A stretch of DNA of 32,340 nucleotides from an uncultured Burkholderiales bacterium (GTDB lineage Bacteria; Pseudomonadota; Gammaproteobacteria; Burkholderiales; Casimicrobiaceae): contig CALDYQ010000032.1 in the NCBI GenBank assembly GCA_937944385.1, forward strand, positions 1 through 32,340, given 5' to 3'. This document shows positions 16,779 through 24,023 of this stretch, in pieces. How positions within the stretch are numbered: the first letter of the stretch is position 1; every line of letters begins with the position of its first letter. The position numbers and the translations under genes are program-made. The notes beneath the pieces are model-generated. The model saw nothing but the letters and a program-made list of their open reading frames with translations, ran no database searches and was not told the origin of the DNA.

Positions 16779-17756
16779 TCAGTCCAGCTTCGCTCCCGAG
16801 GACTTCACGACTTCGGCCCAGCGCTTGATCTCCGCGTTCACGAAGCGGCCGAAGGCCTCGCCGTAGAGGTTTGGCGTCTCTGCGCCCATGCCGTTCCAGA
16901 TCGTTTTCAGTTCTTCGCTGGCGAAGGCCTGACGCAGGTCGTTCTGGAATTTCTGGATGACCGCGGGCGGCGTGCCGGCGGGTGCCCACAGGCCATACCA
17001 CGTCGATACCGTGTAGTTGAGTCCCTGCTCCTTCGCGGTCGGGATGTTCGGGAAGCCTGGCGCCCGCTGCTCGGCAGCGACCGCGATCGCCTTGATGCGC
17101 CCGCCCCGGATGTGGCCTGCCGATGAGCCCATGCCGTCGAACATCACGTCGATCTGCCCGCCCACGAGGTCGGTGAGGGCCGGGCCCGCCCCCTTGTAGG
17201 GTACGTGCTGGATCTTGACGCCCGCGGCGGCGTTGAAGAGCTCGCCCGCGAGGTGGTGTGACGAACCATTACCGGCCGAGCCAAAGTTCATTCGCCCGTC
17301 GGCGCGCCTGGCGGCTTCGATGAAGCCCTTGAGATCGTTCGCCGCGACGCGCTGCGGGTTGACCACGATCACCTGCGGCACCGAGGAGACGAGCGCGACC
17401 GGCACAAAGCTCCGCTCGATGTCGTAGTCGAGCCTCGGATAGAGGGAAGGCGCAATGGCATGGTGCACCGCGCCCATGAAGAACGTGTAGCCGTCGGGGA
17501 GCGCCTTTGCCGCCACCGCTGCACCGAGCGTGCCGCCGGCGCCCCCCCGGTTGTCGATCACGAACTGCTGGCCAAGCACCTTGGACAGATGCGCCGTCAG
17601 CGGACGGGCGAAGGCGTCGGTACCGCCGCCGGCAGGGAAGGGCACCACGATCGTGACGGGTTTGGCTGGCCACGCCGGGGCCTGTGCCCACGCGGCTGTC
17701 GTCAGCGCGGCCGTTACGACAGATGCGGCCAGAAGACGGGCGAGCGACGCAATCAT
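16779..17756 (-). CDS. TctC/Bug-family tripartite tricarboxylate transporter substrate-binding protein
   Basis: 325 residues from the ATG at 17756, with AAGGAGG 4 bases upstream. A Sec signal peptide ends near AAWAQAPAWP (~23-27). The mature N terminus KPVTIVVPFPAGGGTDAFAR and the later NFGSAGNGSSHHLAGELF, VPYKGAGPALTDLVGGQIDV and WYGLWAPAGTP are hallmarks of Bug receptors, which are greatly expanded in Burkholderiales. These periplasmic proteins bind carboxylates, amides or other small acids for TctAB permeases. No tctA or tctB is nearby, so it is an orphan receptor and its ligand cannot be read from sequence. It diverges from the zinc locus; its 5' leader can fold over the ribosome-binding site. 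Confidence 0.93.
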   Translation of the reverse strand: MIASLARLLAASVVTAALTTAAWAQAPAWPAKPVTIVVPFPAGGGTDAFARPLTAHLSKVLGQQFVIDNRGGAGGTLGAAVAAKALPDGYTFFMGAVHHAIAPSLYPRLDYDIERSFVPVALVSSVPQVIVVNPQRVAANDLKGFIEAARRADGRMNFGSAGNGSSHHLAGELFNAAAGVKIQHVPYKGAGPALTDLVGGQIDVMFDGMGSSAGHIRGGRIKAIAVAAEQRAPGFPNIPTAKEQGLNYTVSTWYGLWAPAGTPPAVIQKFQNDLRQAFASEELKTIWNGMGAETPNLYGEAFGRFVNAEIKRWAEVVKSSGAKLD

Positions 17757-17760
17757 GAAT

Positions 17761-17809
17761 CCTCCTTGTTCCTTGCTGAGTGGGGTTGGGTCCCACCTTT
17801 TTAACAAGG
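17761..17809 (-). promoter_or_regulatory. tctC leader fold that could mask the ribosome-binding site
   Basis: In the minus-strand mRNA, CCTTGTT (17809-17803) is perfectly complementary to AACAAGG (17770-17764). The latter shares its AAGG with the Shine-Dalgarno AAGGAGG (17767-17761). Between them GTGGG and CCCAC (17796-17780) form an inner 5-bp hairpin. The ATG follows at 17756. This arrangement could regulate translation; no known riboswitch class is recognised. Confidence 0.35.
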
Positions 17810-17865
17810 CGCTCCGCGCTGGGTGCTCGAGCACGTCGCAGTGGCACTGGCGTTGCTTTTGCGAT

Positions 17866-17896
17866 TGTTACGAAGTAGCATTGTTATGTTGTCACG
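17866..17896. promoter_or_regulatory. Two tandem Zur-like boxes upstream of the zinc locus
   Basis: TGTTAC-GAA-GTAGCA (17866-17880) and TGTTAT-GTT-GTCACG (17882-17896) each fit the 6-3-6 palindrome TGTTAT-N3-ATAACA known for betaproteobacterial Zur, with three mismatches each. They are one base apart and lie 20-50 bases before the likely aztD start. A possible promoter (TTGCTT 17853-17858, TAGCAT 17876-17881, 17-base spacing) overlaps box 1, so binding would repress it. A zur-type gene ends the same locus. Confidence 0.5.
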
Positions 17897-17915: not shown

Positions 17916-19190
17916 ATGGGCAAATCAAGCAATCGCGTCACATATTGCCTCATGCTCGCCTTGGTTGCCGGTGCGCTCGCGGGCTGCGGCGGCGGAGGGG
18001 ATGAGGCGCACAAGGATTTCTTCATCGACACCAAGGGCCGGCTTGCGATCGCCGCGCAAGACTCGGCGAATGTTCGCATTCACGATCTCGACAGCGGACA
18101 GACAGCGGGCACGTTCGCGATGGCGAACCCACCCTCGGCGCTCTATGCGAGTCCCGGTGGGCGGTTCGTGCTCGCCGTGCAGCGCACGAACAACCTCGTG
18201 CAGACGATCGACGGCGGCGTGTGGCAGGAGGATCACGGCGATCACCTGCATGACTACAAACAGGCTCCGGCGATGGCGGGCTTTCGCATCGATGGCCCGC
18301 AGCCGACGCATTACGATGATCGTCATGGCCGGGCGAGCATCTTCATGGATGGTCGCGCCGGGCCGCCGCTCGAGTCGTCCTACGCGGTGCTGTTCGACGA
18401 GGACTCGATCGCCCGCGGCCGTCTGCTGGCCCGCTTGCCCGAGCTGCCCTATGCGGTGCACGGTTTCGCTGAACCGAACGGGGAGCACCTGGTGGTGACG
18501 CATCGCTCGGCCGATGCGGTCGATGCCCTACCGAATTACCTGCACGTCTGGCGGCGCTCGGGCGAGACGTTCACGAAGGTACAGGAGCTGCCGACGCGCT
18601 GCGACCGCATGCATGGCAGCTACACACGGCAGCACGTCACGGTCGCTGGTTGCGCCGACGGCGTGGCGATCCTCAAGCGTGACGCCGCGGGGCAGTTCAC
18701 GAGCCAGATGGCAGCCGCCTCACATCGCATCGGCACGGTTGCCGGACATGCAAAGCAAAGCCGAATGATCGGCATCGGCAATGCAGGCACACCTTTGACG
18801 AGTCAGTTTTCCGACATCGATCTCGACACCGGTCGCACGACGAAAATCATGATCGATGGCTGGGGGGAAGGCCGACTGCGTCGGGCGCACGGCTGGAACC
18901 GTCAGGGCACGCGTTTCTTCGTGCTAGACGACCGCGGAAGCCTGTTCGTCCTCGAATTCGCAAATGGCGCTTGGCGAACCATCAAGCGTATCGATGGGGT
19001 GATCGCCGAGATGCCGACGGCTGCGCCCTTCCCGGCGTTCGTGGCGAACGGCGCCAAGGACGAGGCGTATTTCACCGATCCGAAGGGACGCGCGCTTGTC
19101 ACCGTGAATACGGCCACGCTCGAAATCGGCGCTCGTACGGCGCTCGATTTCGTGCCTTCGGCCTTGGCTTGGGTTGGGATCACGCGATGA
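17916..19190 (+). CDS. aztD: AztD-like zinc metallochaperone, lipoprotein form
   Basis: 424 residues from the ATG at 17916. A second in-frame ATG at 17886 falls inside a Zur-like box, so the later start is preferred; neither has a clear Shine-Dalgarno. The N terminus is a lipoprotein signal with lipobox LAGC (Cys24) and Gly at +2. The rest looks like a beta-propeller of repeated ~45-residue sheets, as known for AztD, the periplasmic zinc chaperone that hands zinc to the binding protein AztC. Candidate zinc ligands are clustered: DHGDHLHDY (His107, His110, His112) and THYDDRHGR (His132, His137). A Cys pair (TRCDRMHGSY..., VAGCADG) may form a disulfide. The stop overlaps the barrel gene start by 4 bases. 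Characterised AztD is soluble; a lipid anchor is unusual. Confidence 0.78.
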   Translation: MGKSSNRVTYCLMLALVAGALAGCGGGGDEAHKDFFIDTKGRLAIAAQDSANVRIHDLDSGQTAGTFAMANPPSALYASPGGRFVLAVQRTNNLVQTIDGGVWQEDHGDHLHDYKQAPAMAGFRIDGPQPTHYDDRHGRASIFMDGRAGPPLESSYAVLFDEDSIARGRLLARLPELPYAVHGFAEPNGEHLVVTHRSADAVDALPNYLHVWRRSGETFTKVQELPTRCDRMHGSYTRQHVTVAGCADGVAILKRDAAGQFTSQMAAASHRIGTVAGHAKQSRMIGIGNAGTPLTSQFSDIDLDTGRTTKIMIDGWGEGRLRRAHGWNRQGTRFFVLDDRGSLFVLEFANGAWRTIKRIDGVIAEMPTAAPFPAFVANGAKDEAYFTDPKGRALVTVNTATLEIGARTALDFVPSALAWVGITR

Positions 19191-20329
19191 GGGCGGCAAT
19201 ACTCCAGCGCGCCGCCCTTGGTCTGGCGGTCGCGACTGCTTCGGCACCCGCTCTCGCTCAGGACTCATGGGCCGTCGGTGCCGTGGTCGATGTTTCTGCG
19301 CTATCCAAGACCTTCCCGCTCGGCGCACGCGACAAGGATCTCGGTCTCGGGCACAGCGATGTCACGGTCTCGGGGGGCATCGCCGGACTGTTCGACGCGC
19401 GACTGACCGGCGCGGCGCATACCCACGAACGCAAACTCGAGGCGCACATCGAGGAGGCCTCGCTGGCCACGCGTACGCTGCCGTTCGGCTTGCAGCTCAA
19501 GGTTGGACGTTTCGCCTCCCAGCTCGGCTATCTGAACGAGCAGCATCCGCACGCAGATGATTTCATCGAGCGGCCATTGCCGTATCGTGCTTTTTTTGGC
19601 CAACACTGGTTCGACGATGGCGTCCGCCTCAATTGGACCGCGCCCTCGGCGGCCTACGTCCGTCTGGGCGTCGAAGCCTTTCGCGGTCGGCAGCTCGTCC
19701 GGGAGACCGCTTCGGCGCGACGGCCCGGTGCGCTCGTCTTCTCGGCCAGGACCGGTGGCGATCTCGGCTCAAGCATGAGCTGGCAGGCCGGTGCCAGCTG
19801 GCTCGACAATCGCCGTGAGCCGCTCATCGAGGAAGACGAGCACGGGCACCATGATCACGATCACGCCGGCGAGCATGAGCATGAGCATGCCCACGGCGCT
19901 GCGTTCAGCGGCCGACGGGGGCTCGTGCTCGATGCCGTCTGGAAATGGGCACCTGGCGGTAACGCAAAAAACGAGCAACTGCGGCTCTCGGGCGAGTATG
20001 TGCGGATCGAACGCCTCAACCGCCATGCCAGCGCAGACGACCGGCACGACGGCGGCTATGTGAGCCTGGTCTACCGCTTCCGTCCCGCATGGGAGGCAGG
20101 CGTCTCGGCAGGCGTTCTGAATGTCCGCATACCGCACGAGGATCATTTCCATCCCGGACGGCTTCGTGAAGCGTCCGTCATGCTCGCCTACAAGCCCGGG
20201 CATCTGCAGAGCTACCGCCTGCAGGCCACGCGCGTGAGTGGCGCGCGCGGCTTCGGCGAGGTTCCCCGGTGGCGCGTCGGTCTGCAGGTGGTGCTTGCGA
20301 TCGGCGCACACCCAGCGCACGGCTTCTGA
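19187..20329 (+). CDS. Predicted outer-membrane beta-barrel with His-rich loop, zinc locus
   Basis: 380 residues from the ATG at 19187, which overlaps the aztD stop as ATGA. A Sec signal peptide ends APALA before Gln25. The mature part alternates polar and apolar residues through many predicted strands (for example LQLKVGRFASQLGYL, VRLNWTAPSAAYVRLGVEAF, RVGLQVVLAI), consistent with a porin-like barrel. Residues 215-237 are a loop with nine His plus Asp/Glu, ending EHEHEHAHG, a likely zinc-collecting site; further His occur at HPHADD (~120) and HEDHFHPGR (~325). It aligns by eye with the barrel at 5951-7306 over several blocks. There is no TonB box or plug domain, so it is not a TonB-dependent receptor. 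A Zur-controlled zinc porin is the best inference. Confidence 0.75.
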   Translation: MRAAILQRAALGLAVATASAPALAQDSWAVGAVVDVSALSKTFPLGARDKDLGLGHSDVTVSGGIAGLFDARLTGAAHTHERKLEAHIEEASLATRTLPFGLQLKVGRFASQLGYLNEQHPHADDFIERPLPYRAFFGQHWFDDGVRLNWTAPSAAYVRLGVEAFRGRQLVRETASARRPGALVFSARTGGDLGSSMSWQAGASWLDNRREPLIEEDEHGHHDHDHAGEHEHEHAHGAAFSGRRGLVLDAVWKWAPGGNAKNEQLRLSGEYVRIERLNRHASADDRHDGGYVSLVYRFRPAWEAGVSAGVLNVRIPHEDHFHPGRLREASVMLAYKPGHLQSYRLQATRVSGARGFGEVPRWRVGLQVVLAIGAHPAHGF

Positions 20330-21276
20330 TGCGGCTCGTCGGTCTGGCCCTCGTCGTAGCGGCGCTCATCGCTGCGCCCGGCGCCCGCGCGCTCGAGGTC
20401 TTCGCCTGCGAGCCGGAGTGGGCAGCGCTCGTTCGCATTCTCCTGCCTGAGGCTCGGATCACCGTGGCGACACACGCTGGACAGGATCCCCACGAAATCG
20501 AGGCTCGGCCGAGCCTGATCGCTGCACTGCGGCGCGCAGATGCCGCCGTCTGCACCGGAGCCGGGCTCGAGGCGGGCTGGCTGCCGATGTTGCAGTCGCG
20601 TGCCGCGAACGCGAAGGTGCAGCCGGGGCAGCCAGGCATGATCGAGATGGCCCGCTTCACCCGGCTCATCGATCCGAGGCCTGCGAGCCTCTCTCCGTTC
20701 TCCGGTGACGTGCATCCCGAAGGCAACCCGCATTTCCACCTCGATCCCAGCCGTTGGCCCGAACTCGCCCGCGGTCTCGCCCAGGCGCTCACCCGGCTCG
20801 CACCAGGTCACTCGACCGCGATGGCCGAGCGCGCTCGGGCGTTCGAGGCTCGCTGGGCCGAGCGCACGCGCGGCTGGCAAGCGCGGCTCGCTGAGGCGAA
20901 GCGTGTACGCGTGGCCGTCCAGCACACGACATTCGCTTACTTCTTCGCTTTCGCCGGGGCACGTGTCGTAGCCGACCTCGAGCCCAAGCCGGGGGTGCCG
21001 CCCACGCCAGGGCATCTTTCGGCCACGCTGGGCGCGCTCCGCGGTGCGCCCCCCCATGCGGTATGGATTGCCACCTACCAGGATGCGCGCCCTGCGCGCT
21101 GGCTTGTGGGGCAGATGGCCGGCGTGCGCCTTGTCATGCTGCCGGCCACGGTCGACGAAGCCGCCGATGAGTCGGCGCTCGTGCGCTGGTTTGACACGCT
21201 GGTCGGGGCGCTTGCAGAGGTGATCGCCGCGGTGCCTGCTGCATCTTTGGCTCGATCGTCGGGCGCAGCAGGGTGA
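20329..21276 (+). CDS. znuA: ZnuA/AztC-type zinc-binding protein of an ABC importer
   Basis: 315 residues; the ATG at 20329 shares its A with the previous stop (TGATG). A Sec signal peptide ends near PGARA (~21). Ligand residues of cluster A-I metal-binding proteins are visible: His55 (AGQDPHEIEARPS), His135/His137 (GNPHFHLDPSRW) and His199 (VQHTTFAYFF), plus the later acidic ATYQDARPARW. The long His-rich flexible loop of E. coli ZnuA is absent, as in AztC, which takes zinc from AztD instead. The protein captures zinc in the periplasm and delivers it to the permease. GTGA overlap with the permease gene shows coupling. Zinc rather than manganese is favoured by the Zur and AztD neighbours. Confidence 0.87.
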   Translation: MRLVGLALVVAALIAAPGARALEVFACEPEWAALVRILLPEARITVATHAGQDPHEIEARPSLIAALRRADAAVCTGAGLEAGWLPMLQSRAANAKVQPGQPGMIEMARFTRLIDPRPASLSPFSGDVHPEGNPHFHLDPSRWPELARGLAQALTRLAPGHSTAMAERARAFEARWAERTRGWQARLAEAKRVRVAVQHTTFAYFFAFAGARVVADLEPKPGVPPTPGHLSATLGALRGAPPHAVWIATYQDARPARWLVGQMAGVRLVMLPATVDEAADESALVRWFDTLVGALAEVIAAVPAASLARSSGAAG

Positions 21277-22055
21277 GCGACCTTGTGTCAACGCTGTTGT
21301 GGCCTGCGGTCGCCCTCGCTGCCGGTGCAGCACTGCTTGCGCCGCTTGGGGTCGAGGTGTTCCGTCGGGGTATCGTTTTCGTCGATCTGGCAATCGCCCA
21401 GGGGGCGGCACTTGCGGCACTGGTCGTTCAGATTCGCTTGCATGAGGCAGCTTCGGCGCTGATGGTGACTTGCGCGGGGGTGCTCGGGGCACTGCTCACT
21501 GCGGGGCTCGTAAGGCTGCTCGCCGCGCGTCTCGATCACGGGCGCGAGGCCGCGATCGGATTGCTTTACGTGGCGGGCGCGAGCGGTGGACTGCTCGTGA
21601 GCGCGCATGATCCTCACGGCGCGGCGCACTTCACCCAGCTTCTCGCGGCCGATGTGCTCTGGGCGGAGCCGAGCCAGACGGTCCCGCTCGGACTCATCGC
21701 CCTCGTCGTGCTCGCGCTCGCCAGTCGCCGGGCGCTGGGCGCGCGAGATGGCGTCTTCTACCCCGCACTTGGACTGGCCGTTGCGCCCGCACTCATGACG
21801 CTCGGGCTCTATGCCGTCTTCGCGCTCCTGATCGCTCCGGCGCTTTGGGCAGAGCGCGTTCGCTACTCAGCTGCACTGTCCGCGGTCGTACTCTTCGCGG
21901 TCTTGACGAGCCTGGGCGCGCTCATCCTTTCGGTGGTACTCGATTGGCCGAGCGGCGCTACGGTCGCCGCCGTGGTCGCCTTCGCAGGGCTCGTCCCTAC
22001 AATCCTTTCGCATGGCACGCGAGCCGAGCAAGTCCAACCGATCGACCGCGGGTGA
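21273..22055 (+). CDS. znuB: ZnuB/AztB-type metal ABC transporter permease
   Basis: 260 residues starting at GTG (GTGA overlap with the binding-protein gene). About seven to eight hydrophobic helices span the length, in the ABC-3 family pattern. Family blocks include LGVEVFRRGIVFVDLAIAQGAALAAL (~25-50), a helix with ARLDHGREAAIGLLYVAGASGG and VFALLIAPALWAERV. It forms the inner-membrane path for zinc. A cognate ATPase is needed, but none is encoded between here and zur or anywhere in the window. The last 44 bases overlap the zur-like start, so importer and regulator are co-expressed. Confidence 0.88.
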   Translation: MSDLVSTLLWPAVALAAGAALLAPLGVEVFRRGIVFVDLAIAQGAALAALVVQIRLHEAASALMVTCAGVLGALLTAGLVRLLAARLDHGREAAIGLLYVAGASGGLLVSAHDPHGAAHFTQLLAADVLWAEPSQTVPLGLIALVVLALASRRALGARDGVFYPALGLAVAPALMTLGLYAVFALLIAPALWAERVRYSAALSAVVLFAVLTSLGALILSVVLDWPSGATVAAVVAFAGLVPTILSHGTRAEQVQPIDRG

Positions 22056-22521
22056 CGCCGCGATCCGAGACGACGCGCGCGTCGAGCACGCCCGCGCCCA
22101 TTGCGAAGCACGCCGACTCAATTTCACACCGCAGCGCGCGGCGGTGTACCGGACGCTGCTCGCCTTCAACTCGCCGGTCAAGGCCTACGATCTGCTTACG
22201 CGAATGCAGCAGGACGCGCCCGGCATGGCGCCGATGACGATCTACCGCGCACTCGACTTCCTGATCGGGGCAGGGCTCATCCACAAGATCGCAGCGACGG
22301 CGAGCTTCGTGCCCTGCGCGCACGAGGGCGCACACGCCCACGGGCAGGTCGCTTTTTTTGTCTGCCAGCGCTGCGGTGCGGTCGATGAGGTCGAGGCGAA
22401 AGACATGATCCACGCGCTCGATCGCGCGAGGCCGCATGGGCGCGGCTTCGCGATGCAGTCGATCGAGGTCCATGGCCTCTGTGCCGACTGCATTGCCGAG
22501 ACAAGCCCGGCGCAACGTTAG
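22012..22521 (+). CDS. zur: Fur-family transcriptional regulator, probable Zur
   Basis: 169 residues. The N-terminal winged helix (~25-95) contains LNFTPQRAAVYRTLLAF and the recognition-helix region MAPMTIYRALDFLIGAGLIHK. The C-terminal half has the two structural-zinc Cys pairs CQRC (118/121) and CADC (157/160), plus a Cys/His-rich stretch PCAHEGAHAHG (102-111) that would form the regulatory zinc site. The fit to Zur and the location at the end of a zinc-import locus favour Zur over Fur. A likely target is the pair of Zur-like boxes at 17866-17896, making the locus self-regulated. The start lies inside the permease gene, and the stop is 5 bases from the tail of tRNA-Leu on the other strand. 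Confidence 0.88.
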   Translation: MAREPSKSNRSTAGDAAIRDDARVEHARAHCEARRLNFTPQRAAVYRTLLAFNSPVKAYDLLTRMQQDAPGMAPMTIYRALDFLIGAGLIHKIAATASFVPCAHEGAHAHGQVAFFVCQRCGAVDEVEAKDMIHALDRARPHGRGFAMQSIEVHGLCADCIAETSPAQR

Positions 22522-22672: not shown

Positions 22673-23443
22673 TCAGCGCGGCGCGGTCGGCAAGTTTTGC
22701 GCACGTCCGATCAAGAAGATCGTCGGTCGCTTTTCGGCAAAGCGCGCGCGGTCGTCGGCGGTCCAGGCGGCGCGCGGCTTGGCAAGAACGGCTTCGGCCT
22801 CGCCCGTGATGTCCTGCGCAGCAGCAAGGACGAGGTCACCTGGCAGCAGTTCGCAGAGTGACGCGAGCATCTGCACGTGCCGGTAGGGTGTTTCGATGAA
22901 AAGCTGGGTCGCACCGGTGGTGCGCACCCGTGCGACGGCATCCCGGATCGCGCGATCCCGCTCGGCAGGTTTGGCGGGCAGATAGCCCAGGAATTCGAAG
23001 CGCTGGCCATCGAGACCGCTCGCTGCCAGCGCAAGCAGGATCGACGAGGGCCCTGTGAGTGGCACCACGCGGACGCCCAACTGATGCGCCCGGGCGACGA
23101 GTGCGCTGCCAGGGTCGGCGATCGCGGGCATCCCGGCATCCGAGACGACACCCACGTCATGCCCGGCGGCGAGCCAGGTTTCGGCGTCCGCGAGTGCAAA
23201 CGGGAGCGGATCGATAGGCGTGATCTCGAGGGTTGCGATCGGGTCGGGATGCGCGATCGCTTTCAGAAAAGCACGGGCGGCCTTGGGCGTCTCGGCGACG
23301 AAGTGGCGGAGACGGCGGGCAGTCTCGATCGTTCCGACGGGGAGCACGGCCTCGGGTGCCGTTGCAGAGAGCAGGGTCGGTACGAGATAGAGCCTGCCGT
23401 AGAGCGTGCCTTCTGGCCGCCCGGTTGGCTCAGCGGTAACCAT
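22673..23443 (-). CDS. SAM-dependent methyltransferase of the tetrapyrrole-methylase/RsmI-like family
   Basis: 256 residues from the ATG at 23443; a GTG at 23461 is an alternative. The start overlaps the maf stop by 14 bases. The tetrapyrrole-methylase fold is indicated by GTLYGRLYLVPTLL at the N terminus, DVGVVSDAGMPAIADPGS (~95-112), VVPLTGPSSILLALAASGL (~125-143) and FIETPYRHVQML (~185). It is shorter and divergent at the N terminus compared with RsmI (the 16S rRNA C1402 2'-O-methyltransferase), where VATPIGNLGD is typical. It belongs to the related group usually found next to maf, yceD and rpmF in betaproteobacteria. The true substrate is unknown, so no gene symbol is given. Confidence 0.85.
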   Translation of the reverse strand: MVTAEPTGRPEGTLYGRLYLVPTLLSATAPEAVLPVGTIETARRLRHFVAETPKAARAFLKAIAHPDPIATLEITPIDPLPFALADAETWLAAGHDVGVVSDAGMPAIADPGSALVARAHQLGVRVVPLTGPSSILLALAASGLDGQRFEFLGYLPAKPAERDRAIRDAVARVRTTGATQLFIETPYRHVQMLASLCELLPGDLVLAAAQDITGEAEAVLAKPRAAWTADDRARFAEKRPTIFLIGRAQNLPTAPR

Positions 23444-24023
23444 GCGGGGCGAGGAGCTCACACAGCCGGATGAGCGGGAGCCCGATGAGCGCGGTCGGGT
23501 CGTCGCTTCGTACCCGGGCGAGGAGTTTGATGCCTGCGGTCTCTACTTTCACCGCGCCGGCTGCGTCGAACGGTCGTTCTCGTTCGAGGTAGGCGATGAG
23601 GTCCGCATCAGGCAGATCGCGGTAGACGATTTCGGTCGGGACACTCTCCACCGCCGCCTGACTGCCGGCCAGCACGCACAGTGCCGTGTGGCAGATGAGG
23701 GTGCGGCCCCGGCAGCGTTGAAGCTGGGCGAGCGCGGTGGCGAAATCGCCGGGCTTCGAGATCGCCTCGCCGTCGAGGTCGAGCACCTGGTCCGAGCCGA
23801 TGACGACGGCCTCGGGATGCTGTTCGGCCACGGCTTGGGCCTTTTCACGGGCCAGCCGCAGGCAGTGCGCGAGCGGTGTCTCGCCCGGCCATTGCGCTTC
23901 GGCCACCCCGGGGGCAATGGCCTCGAACGGCCAGCCTAGCCGGGCGAGCAGTTCGCGACGGTAGCGGGAGGTCGAGGCGAGGAAGAGGGGCGGCACGCTC
24001 GTGGATGTCGGTGGTGAGGGCAC
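23430..24023 (-). CDS. maf: Maf-family nucleotide pyrophosphatase, YceF type
   Basis: 197 residues starting at GTG (24023). The Maf signature LASTSRYRRELLARLG is near the N terminus (~15-30). GSDQVLDLDGEAISKPGDF (~75-93) holds the catalytic acidic residue and matches the YceF (7-methyl-GTP pyrophosphatase) branch rather than the dTTP/UTP branch. The C-terminal block KVETAGIKLLARVRSDDPTALIGLPL is also typical. The enzyme hydrolyses modified nucleotides to prevent their misincorporation. It is divergent from yceD with 134 bases between and is followed by the methyltransferase gene with an overlap. Confidence 0.93.
   Translation of the reverse strand: MPSPPTSTSVPPLFLASTSRYRRELLARLGWPFEAIAPGVAEAQWPGETPLAHCLRLAREKAQAVAEQHPEAVVIGSDQVLDLDGEAISKPGDFATALAQLQRCRGRTLICHTALCVLAGSQAAVESVPTEIVYRDLPDADLIAYLERERPFDAAGAVKVETAGIKLLARVRSDDPTALIGLPLIRLCELLAPHGYR

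Follow-up and report, generated by a model that had tools for sequence, protein, structure and literature searches.

How could an operon that encodes the binding protein and the permease of an ATP-binding cassette (ABC) zinc importer, without any ATPase, bring zinc into a cell? The question is raised by five plus-strand genes lying head to tail at positions 17916-22521 of contig CALDYQ010000032.1, from an uncultured Burkholderiales bacterium (Casimicrobiaceae), which code in order for an AztD-like protein, an outer-membrane barrel-like protein, a ZnuA-type binding protein, an ABC-3-fold permease and a Zur-like regulator. The window examined is this contig in full (C32, 32,340 nucleotides), part of a genome of 2.54 Mb in 98 contigs that is 98.6% complete and is referred to here as G000. 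A preliminary description of the locus had left a choice between an ATPase shared from elsewhere and a system powered differently. The second is favoured here: with a probability of roughly 0.6, the operon is predicted to encode a zinc permease of the ABC fold that is fed by a substrate-binding protein, works without ATP hydrolysis and derives from a ZnuABC/AztABCD-type importer. The shared ATPase is disfavoured, as the window permease has no coupling segment and no ZnuC-type ATPase stands out in the genome. ATP-free metal import appears probable because the motorless gene set recurs widely, mostly with a permease that lacks the piece on which a motor would dock.

The operon and its proteins

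The gene ends overlap and the next gene after the Zur open reading frame (22673-23461) lies on the opposite strand, so that no space is left for an ATPase gene in the operon; the gene order and the lack of room given in the preliminary description are thus borne out by the coordinates. Its further statement that the window holds no other ABC ATPase agrees with the genome search, in which the ABC_tran model gave 62 matches (E <= 0.001), none of them on C32. The models PF00950 (ABC-3) and PF01297 (ZnuA) match once each in the genome, both times inside the operon.

The binding protein matches PF01297 at 101.5 bits (cut-off 29) and the Zur-like protein matches PF01475 (Fur family) at 44.1 bits (cut-off 23.1), while the permease, at 21.6 bits, is barely over the PF00950 cut-off of 20.1. 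The names AztD and Zur sit under NCBI's thresholds, since the AztD-like protein reaches 94 bits with NF038015 (E 7.6e-27; cut-off 400) and the Zur-like protein 111 bits with PRK11639 (cut-off 167). For the AztD-like protein, the binding protein and the permease, the top NCBIfam hits are Azt models, with scores far under the curated cut-offs. The product of 19187-20329 is presumably a barrel, an identity adopted from the preliminary description; it gave no match in Pfam, NCBIfam or PADLOC, and a homologue gave a sub-threshold match to a BBP2 porin. In its His-rich stretch the window barrel is unusual, as at least 7 His in 25 residues are found in only 3 of 53 family barrels.

A widespread permease lineage without an adjoining ATPase

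A scan of contigs with the window permease yielded 19 related loci, in metagenome-assembled genomes (MAGs) labelled Gamma-, Alpha- and Betaproteobacteria, Lysobacterales, Nitrospirae/Nitrospiria, Zixibacteriota, Gemmatimonadota, Eisenbacteria and one further bacterium. All 19 have a binding-protein gene and 17 have a barrel gene; the contigs of the two barrel-less loci (L047 and L050) start within the binding-protein gene, and that of L051 stops within the permease gene. When 300 genomes of the order were screened with a profile built from the 19 permeases (A1), 77 of them, the window's genome included, gave at least 142 bits; the next matches, canonical control permeases among them, reached at most 110 bits. 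In a class-wide draw, A1 matched at E <= 1e-35 in 90 of 369 genomes (75 of 314 when only the better ones are counted). Comparing the locus with relatives, a check named in the preliminary description, has thus brought out a lineage that is invisible from the window alone. The permeases of L082 and L117 scored far below every cut-off in an NCBIfam search, so that no NCBIfam model names this permease family.

The window permease matched no plasmid. The L096 permease matched two records, from Vibrio campbellii and Sulfurovum mangrovi; each has a cassette of barrel, binding protein and permease, and the 12.7 kb examined holds no ABC ATPase. The Sulfurovum mangrovi genes are annotated 'metal ABC transporter permease' and 'zinc ABC transporter substrate-binding protein'; because such genes carry ABC transporter names, the annotation implies an ATP-driven importer without its motor. 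The Vibrio campbellii cassette sits on NZ_CP050465.1 (L172), a record of 2.06 Mb labelled plasmid with two annotated features only in the collection searched.

Neighbourhoods were then compared in 41 family stretches picked from strong A1 matches (L082-L122, with L097 and L115 from one genome) and 19 canonical controls (L123-L141); in seven of the 41, less than 3 kb was available on one side of the permease. The permease gene has the binding-protein gene at no more than 300 nt in 41/41 and a barrel gene at no more than 2.5 kb in 34/41, the stretches without a barrel gene being L103, L112-L115, L118 and L119. An ABC ATPase occurs in only four family stretches, 4455, 3164, 1995 and 1974 nt from the permease, compared with 19/19 controls in which a permease has one at a distance of 4 nt or less. 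The L117 ATPase (3164 nt) is part of a separate canonical system, those of L118 and L119, about 2 kb downstream, are best fitted by DevA/LolD models, and in L094 the match is weak (50 bits) and lies on the opposite strand. Since the absence of the ATPase is conserved across the family stretches, it is not a matter of chance.

An ABC-F protein was also considered as motor, a large ATPase frame (639-734 aa, stop to stop) following the permease in L037, L046 and L049. The L037 protein, the one of the three that was classified, is YheS-like (PRK10636, 782 bits; ABC-F model, 454 bits, over the cut-off). The candidate was rejected and the frame taken as a mere neighbour, because none was seen beside the other cassettes. 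In L043, an ABC frame of 581 aa lies about 5 kb upstream of the barrel gene.

Search for a ZnuC-type ATPase elsewhere in the genomes

The 19 control ATPases were combined into a profile (A2), with which the 300 order genomes were screened at eight scored candidates per genome. In G000, where 113 of 113 candidates were scored, no ZnuC-type ATPase rose above background (best 170 bits). Classification of ten of its twelve best candidates (ranks 1-9 and 12) gave sulfate, phosphonate (two), LptB, Drr, heme, MacB/LolD, aminoethylphosphonate/polyamine-type (two) and glutamine as best models. The genome search for an unpaired ZnuC/AztA ATPase proposed in the preliminary description therefore returned none above background, and the complete second znuABC named there as the refuting case was sought in G000 and not found, with a single PF00950 match, a single PF01297 match and no ZnuC above background.

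Among the 77 family genomes of the order, six have an A2 match at E <= 1e-77 (G228, G016, G026, G112, G021 and G299), and the other 71 range from 3e-45 to 4e-60, as do many genomes without a strong A1 match. This order test can miss an ATPase, as G195 has a canonical permease and showed no strong ATPase. A further full-length canonical ABC-3 permease is present in at least 7 of 75 order family genomes among the matches listed (G228, G026, G195, G112, G021, G016 and G299; G006 and G000 stand outside the 75). In twelve single-contig family genomes, no ZnuC-type ATPase was found above background, with 32 candidates scored in each of G379, G381, G420, G423, G430, G559 and G608 and eight in each of G043, G148, G182, G216 and G221. 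The L045 chromosome (Gemmatimonadota) is likewise at background (1.4e-53), and its one ABC-3 match is located at the cassette. The class test covered 79 of 89 family genomes with 32 candidates each, ten genomes of at most 86% completeness being left out; A2 gave E <= 1e-62 in 29, 1e-62 to 1e-58 in 9 and values above 1e-58 in 41, with no sharp gap.

Coupling segment, metal triad and fold of the permease

The permease was aligned in 61 family rows (19 of A1 and 42 from the stretches, L082 repeating L038 and L141 repeating L117) and 24 canonical rows (one a repeat). From column 126 to Pro189, 81 residues are present in 24/24 canonical rows and 62-63 in 48/61 family rows, the window included, which amounts to a loss of 18-19 residues at the place of the canonical coupling helix. 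The missing piece holds the canonical F-D-x-x-x-A-x-x-x-G stretch (FDELLAKAMG, 162-171, in PsaC), and in many family permeases the match to the Pfam ABC-3 model is split in two around a gap that runs from about 140-150 to 160-170. In AlphaFold2 models, the canonical L130 permease has a helix at 167-196 followed by a short helix at 198-203; in the window permease (mean predicted local distance difference test score 89.9), a helix at 133-151 is followed only by 154-157. To judge from what is typical of type II importers and from the two matched models, the lost piece is probably their coupling helix with its EAA-like motif. In PsaBC and MntBC, coupling helices are described as linking the membrane domains to the ATPases (PMC11779740).

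The metal path is altered as well. Bacillus anthracis MntC is reported to require Asp47, His51 and Asp94 (PMC8487065). In the columns taken as matching, the second position is Gln43 in 61/61 family rows and His in 24/24 canonical rows, and the third is Glu92 in 61/61 family rows and Asp in 24/24 canonical rows. Asp38 is invariant in the family (61/61) and stands one column before the canonical Asp, itself present in 15/24. By this alignment, the family carries a D/Q/E triad in place of the canonical D/H/D. The overall fold is conserved: the best solved match of the window permease model is PsaC (PDB 7KYO and 7KYP; Z 24.2 and 23.1; root-mean-square deviation 3.7 over 243 residues). ZIP and TRAP proteins are absent from the structure-match lists, an absence that says nothing of relatedness.

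Order of events and selection

In a tree of 83 rows, the root of which is not known, one branch (100/100) sets the 23 canonical rows apart, and those with the deletion form, together with L122, a clade of 48 rows (100/99); twelve other long-segment rows lie in between. Read from the canonical side, this topology is consistent with an ATPase neighbour that was lost first and a segment that was deleted once, later. The window groups with L117, L122 and L120 (100/97); L117 and L122 are the two other loci headed by an AztD homologue with a Zur-like gene nearby. The window and L120 sit on long branches and may be paired wrongly.

The ratio of non-synonymous to synonymous substitution rates (dN/dS), taken over whole open frames in eight pairs of relatives for each gene, is 0.06-0.28 for the permease and 0.07-0.30 for the binding protein. 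The sampled relatives are under purifying selection; for the window itself no relative is close enough. An assembly artefact or a pseudogene was rejected in view of the recurrence of the cassette in single-contig genomes, the open frames and these permease values.

Zinc as the substrate

In the binding protein, the ligands H155 and H219 are present in 61/61 rows and H75 in 55/61, and a family-specific E238 in 61/61. The third ligand site is His in ten and Glu in eight of 18 canonical binding proteins, His at this site being a zinc-like choice. Upstream of the window operon, two Zur-like sites lie in tandem at 17866-17896, the first with two mismatches to the pattern and the second with none, a value that is uninformative because the pattern derives in part from that very site. 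The same pattern is weak in the genome, with 21 matches against 14 for the reversed control. When a general Zur consensus was used, the window upstream stretch reached 11/15, as did 6% of controls. Among 40 of the 41 upstream stretches (that of L099 being too short), at least 12/15 was reached in four cassettes (L117, L118, L119 and L122), compared with 1.6% of 800 control stretches. A Zur box beside all cassettes was consequently rejected, and a Zur-like gene is present in 2/41 family stretches.

The genome has one ZIP gene, on contig C25, with a Zur-like site (G000:C25:44783-44797; L142:1401-1415) 43 nt before a possible GTG start, and this gene is likely a second zinc entry. The self-contained zinc route with its own regulator put forward in the preliminary description is plausible as a route, but probably not the sole one.

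Proposed mechanism and alternative explanations

In the favoured reading, zinc would reach the periplasm, perhaps via the barrel, where the AztD-like protein and the ZnuA-type binding protein would take it up and pass it to the permease. The latter, presumably a dimer as in its relatives, would no longer dock an ATPase, its coupling segment being deleted and its triad D/Q/E. Docking of the loaded binding protein would open the permease path, and Zn2+ would follow its electrochemical gradient into the cytosol, the mode of entry also assumed for ZIP proteins. With two charges, an inside-negative membrane and very low free cytosolic zinc, this gradient should in principle need no ATP. To judge from the sites, the operon's Zur would repress the operon when zinc is replete. 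The wider proposal is held more tentatively and falls a little short of even odds: a widespread undescribed class in which the ABC-importer fold, with a high-affinity binding protein, serves as an ATP-free metal uniporter or secondary carrier, the ATPase having been lost first and the coupling segment deleted in a single later event, basal to a large clade made up mainly of proteobacteria. Segment-keeping members without an adjoining ATPase survive in Gemmatimonadota and others.

Several observations weigh against this picture. The coupling segment keeps 73-84 residues in 13/61 family rows, in L122 apparently by insertion, and some Gemmatimonadota members have a canonical-looking segment, yet no ATPase adjoins them; absence of the ATPase thus does not need loss of the segment. 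A generic ATPase could also bind by another surface of the permease. Many cassette genomes of the class draw have a ZnuC-type ATPase as well (the 29 of 79 above, with the 9 borderline), so that the cassette is not alone there. None of five other sampled genomes of the window's genus has the cassette, which is therefore patchy and dispensable within the genus. Finally, because a strong Zur-like box stands beside only four of 40 cassettes, zinc is not secured as the substrate of the wider family.

It is unlikely that the permease borrows an ATPase encoded elsewhere. Sharing has a precedent in sugar importers, some of which use one common ATPase (MsiK), and the 62 ABC ATPase matches of G000 include a natural candidate, the heme-type L148, which is the sole type II importer ATPase among those classified and lies beside a very hydrophobic frame of 347 residues; the canonical-looking segment kept in some family members would also suit a borrowed motor. 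However, the docking segment is missing in the window permease and in 47 other family rows, the ten classified ATPases of G000 have better-fitting assignments, and no ZnuC-type ATPase stands above background either in G000 or in the twelve single-contig genomes, five of which had eight candidates scored. A permease that is independent of ATP and coupled to protons, acting as a zinc-proton antiporter or symporter through Asp, Gln and Glu instead of as a uniporter gated by the binding protein, is quite unlikely. It would fit the lack of an ATPase with the cassette and the invariant acidic Asp38 and Glu92, which occupy positions of the triad described for MntC (PMC8487065), but acidic residues are needed there in ATP-driven relatives too and so give no argument for coupling.

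The permease-fold protein could instead be a non-transporting receptor for the zinc-loaded binding protein, in sensing or periplasmic storage, with zinc entering by ZIP. The altered triad and the Zur-like site upstream of the ZIP gene are in line with such a role, which is nonetheless improbable, given that most family stretches are without a recognisable regulator, that the acidic path residues are retained and that the whole membrane part folds like a working importer. A decayed or mis-assembled znu operon, to which the marginal Pfam score of the permease and its long tree branch might point, is very improbable, as the five frames are open and overlapping, the arrangement recurs in many genomes, closed ones included, and the dN/dS of relatives is well below 1.

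Comparison with known systems

AztABCD of Paracoccus denitrificans likewise brings together an AztD-like protein, a cluster A-I binding protein and an ABC-3 permease; the operon differs in lacking the AztA ATPase and the coupling segment, in having a barrel and Zur in addition, and in scoring far under the Azt cut-offs. With ZnuABC it shares the binding-protein family, the permease fold and a Zur-like regulator with sites, but not ZnuC, which has no counterpart above background in the genome, nor the D/H/D triad. The manganese importer PsaBC provides the best structural match in PsaC, which, unlike the window permease, keeps the FDELLAKAMG segment and works with the ATPase PsaB. Precedents for an importer membrane subunit without a motor are the solitary BioY and BtuM, energy-coupling factor (ECF) S-components that do without an ATPase; these are different proteins and have no periplasmic binding protein. 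TRAP transporters are described as taking up substrate from a binding protein without ATP (PMC8276074), as proposed here, but their membrane proteins differ, and no TRAP domain, including the DctQ and DctM subunits in Pfam, was matched among the operon proteins. ZrgABCDE of Vibrio cholerae, another unusual zinc importer standing beside ZnuABC, is described as encoding its own ATPase (zrgC), and as using a binding protein that is not related to ZnuA (PMC9820375).

No description of an ATPase-less Znu-like system was found among the titles and abstracts listed in searches of the open-access literature, which is weak evidence of novelty. Should the favoured reading hold, a textbook primary active importer would have turned ATP-free while keeping its binding protein, and would offer a natural experiment, with intermediates still living, on what ATPase and coupling helix each contribute to type II ABC importers. 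An apparently undescribed metal-uptake route would then exist in a fair part of the Gammaproteobacteria class (the 90 of 369 genomes sampled).

Features of the locus and neighbouring genes

The internal starts of the AztD-like, barrel and binding-protein genes in the table were taken from translations.

Table 1. Coordinates of the operon, its sites and permease features in the window, and of ABC ATPase frames following the cassette in three MAGs
Feature	Position	Strand	Basis or remark
Tandem Zur-operator-like sites (17866-17880; 17882-17896)	17866..17896	+	just 5' of first gene
AztD-like zinc chaperone, lipoprotein-like N-terminus	17916..19190	+	ATG 17916; NF038015, 94 bits
Outer-membrane barrel-like protein (presumed), His-rich stretch	19187..20329	+	ATG 19187; 4-nt overlap with AztD-like gene
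ZnuA-type (cluster A-I) metal-binding protein	20329..21276	+	ATG 20329; 1-nt overlap with barrel gene; PF01297
ABC-3-fold permease of the ATPase-less lineage	21273..22055	+	GTG 21273; 4-nt overlap with binding-protein gene
Permease signature FVDLAIAQ, residues 36-43, with Asp38 and Gln43	21378..21401	+	alignment
Permease Glu92 (canonical Asp)	21546..21548	+	alignment
Permease short loop, residues 151-159, in place of the canonical coupling-helix segment	21723..21749	+	alignment, models
Zur-like Fur-family regulator, open reading frame	22012..22521	+	44-nt overlap with permease gene; PRK11639, PF01475
ABC ATPase frame after cassette	L037:4822-6774		MAG
ABC ATPase frame after cassette	L046:8398-10602		MAG
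ABC ATPase frame after cassette	L049:10849-12768		MAG

Directly before the operon and divergent from it, a TctC-type tripartite tricarboxylate transporter receptor is encoded at 16779-17834 on the minus strand. In other genomes, the cassette is often seen by eye near xerC/dapF-like genes upstream and hslV/hslU-like genes downstream (e.g. L038, L091 and L100), a setting that suggests long vertical inheritance. L112-L115 form a barrel-less sister group with permease frames that measure 433-451 aa between stops, one upstream gene common to all four and Glu at the place of the first His ligand of the binding protein (4/61 rows); no ABC ATPase occurs in their fetched stretches.

DUF2946 open reading frames are copper-responsive leaders in Bordetella. 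A cluster of small His/Cys proteins is found at 25 family loci, mostly upstream of the barrel gene (e.g. L087:5199-5549 and L049:7173-7583), of which the L049 copy matches DUF2946 at 21.4 bits (cut-off 23.7) and the L087 copy gave no match. In a Zixibacteriota MAG, the cassette is followed by a gene for a NicO-like nickel/cobalt transporter (L042:10742-11425).

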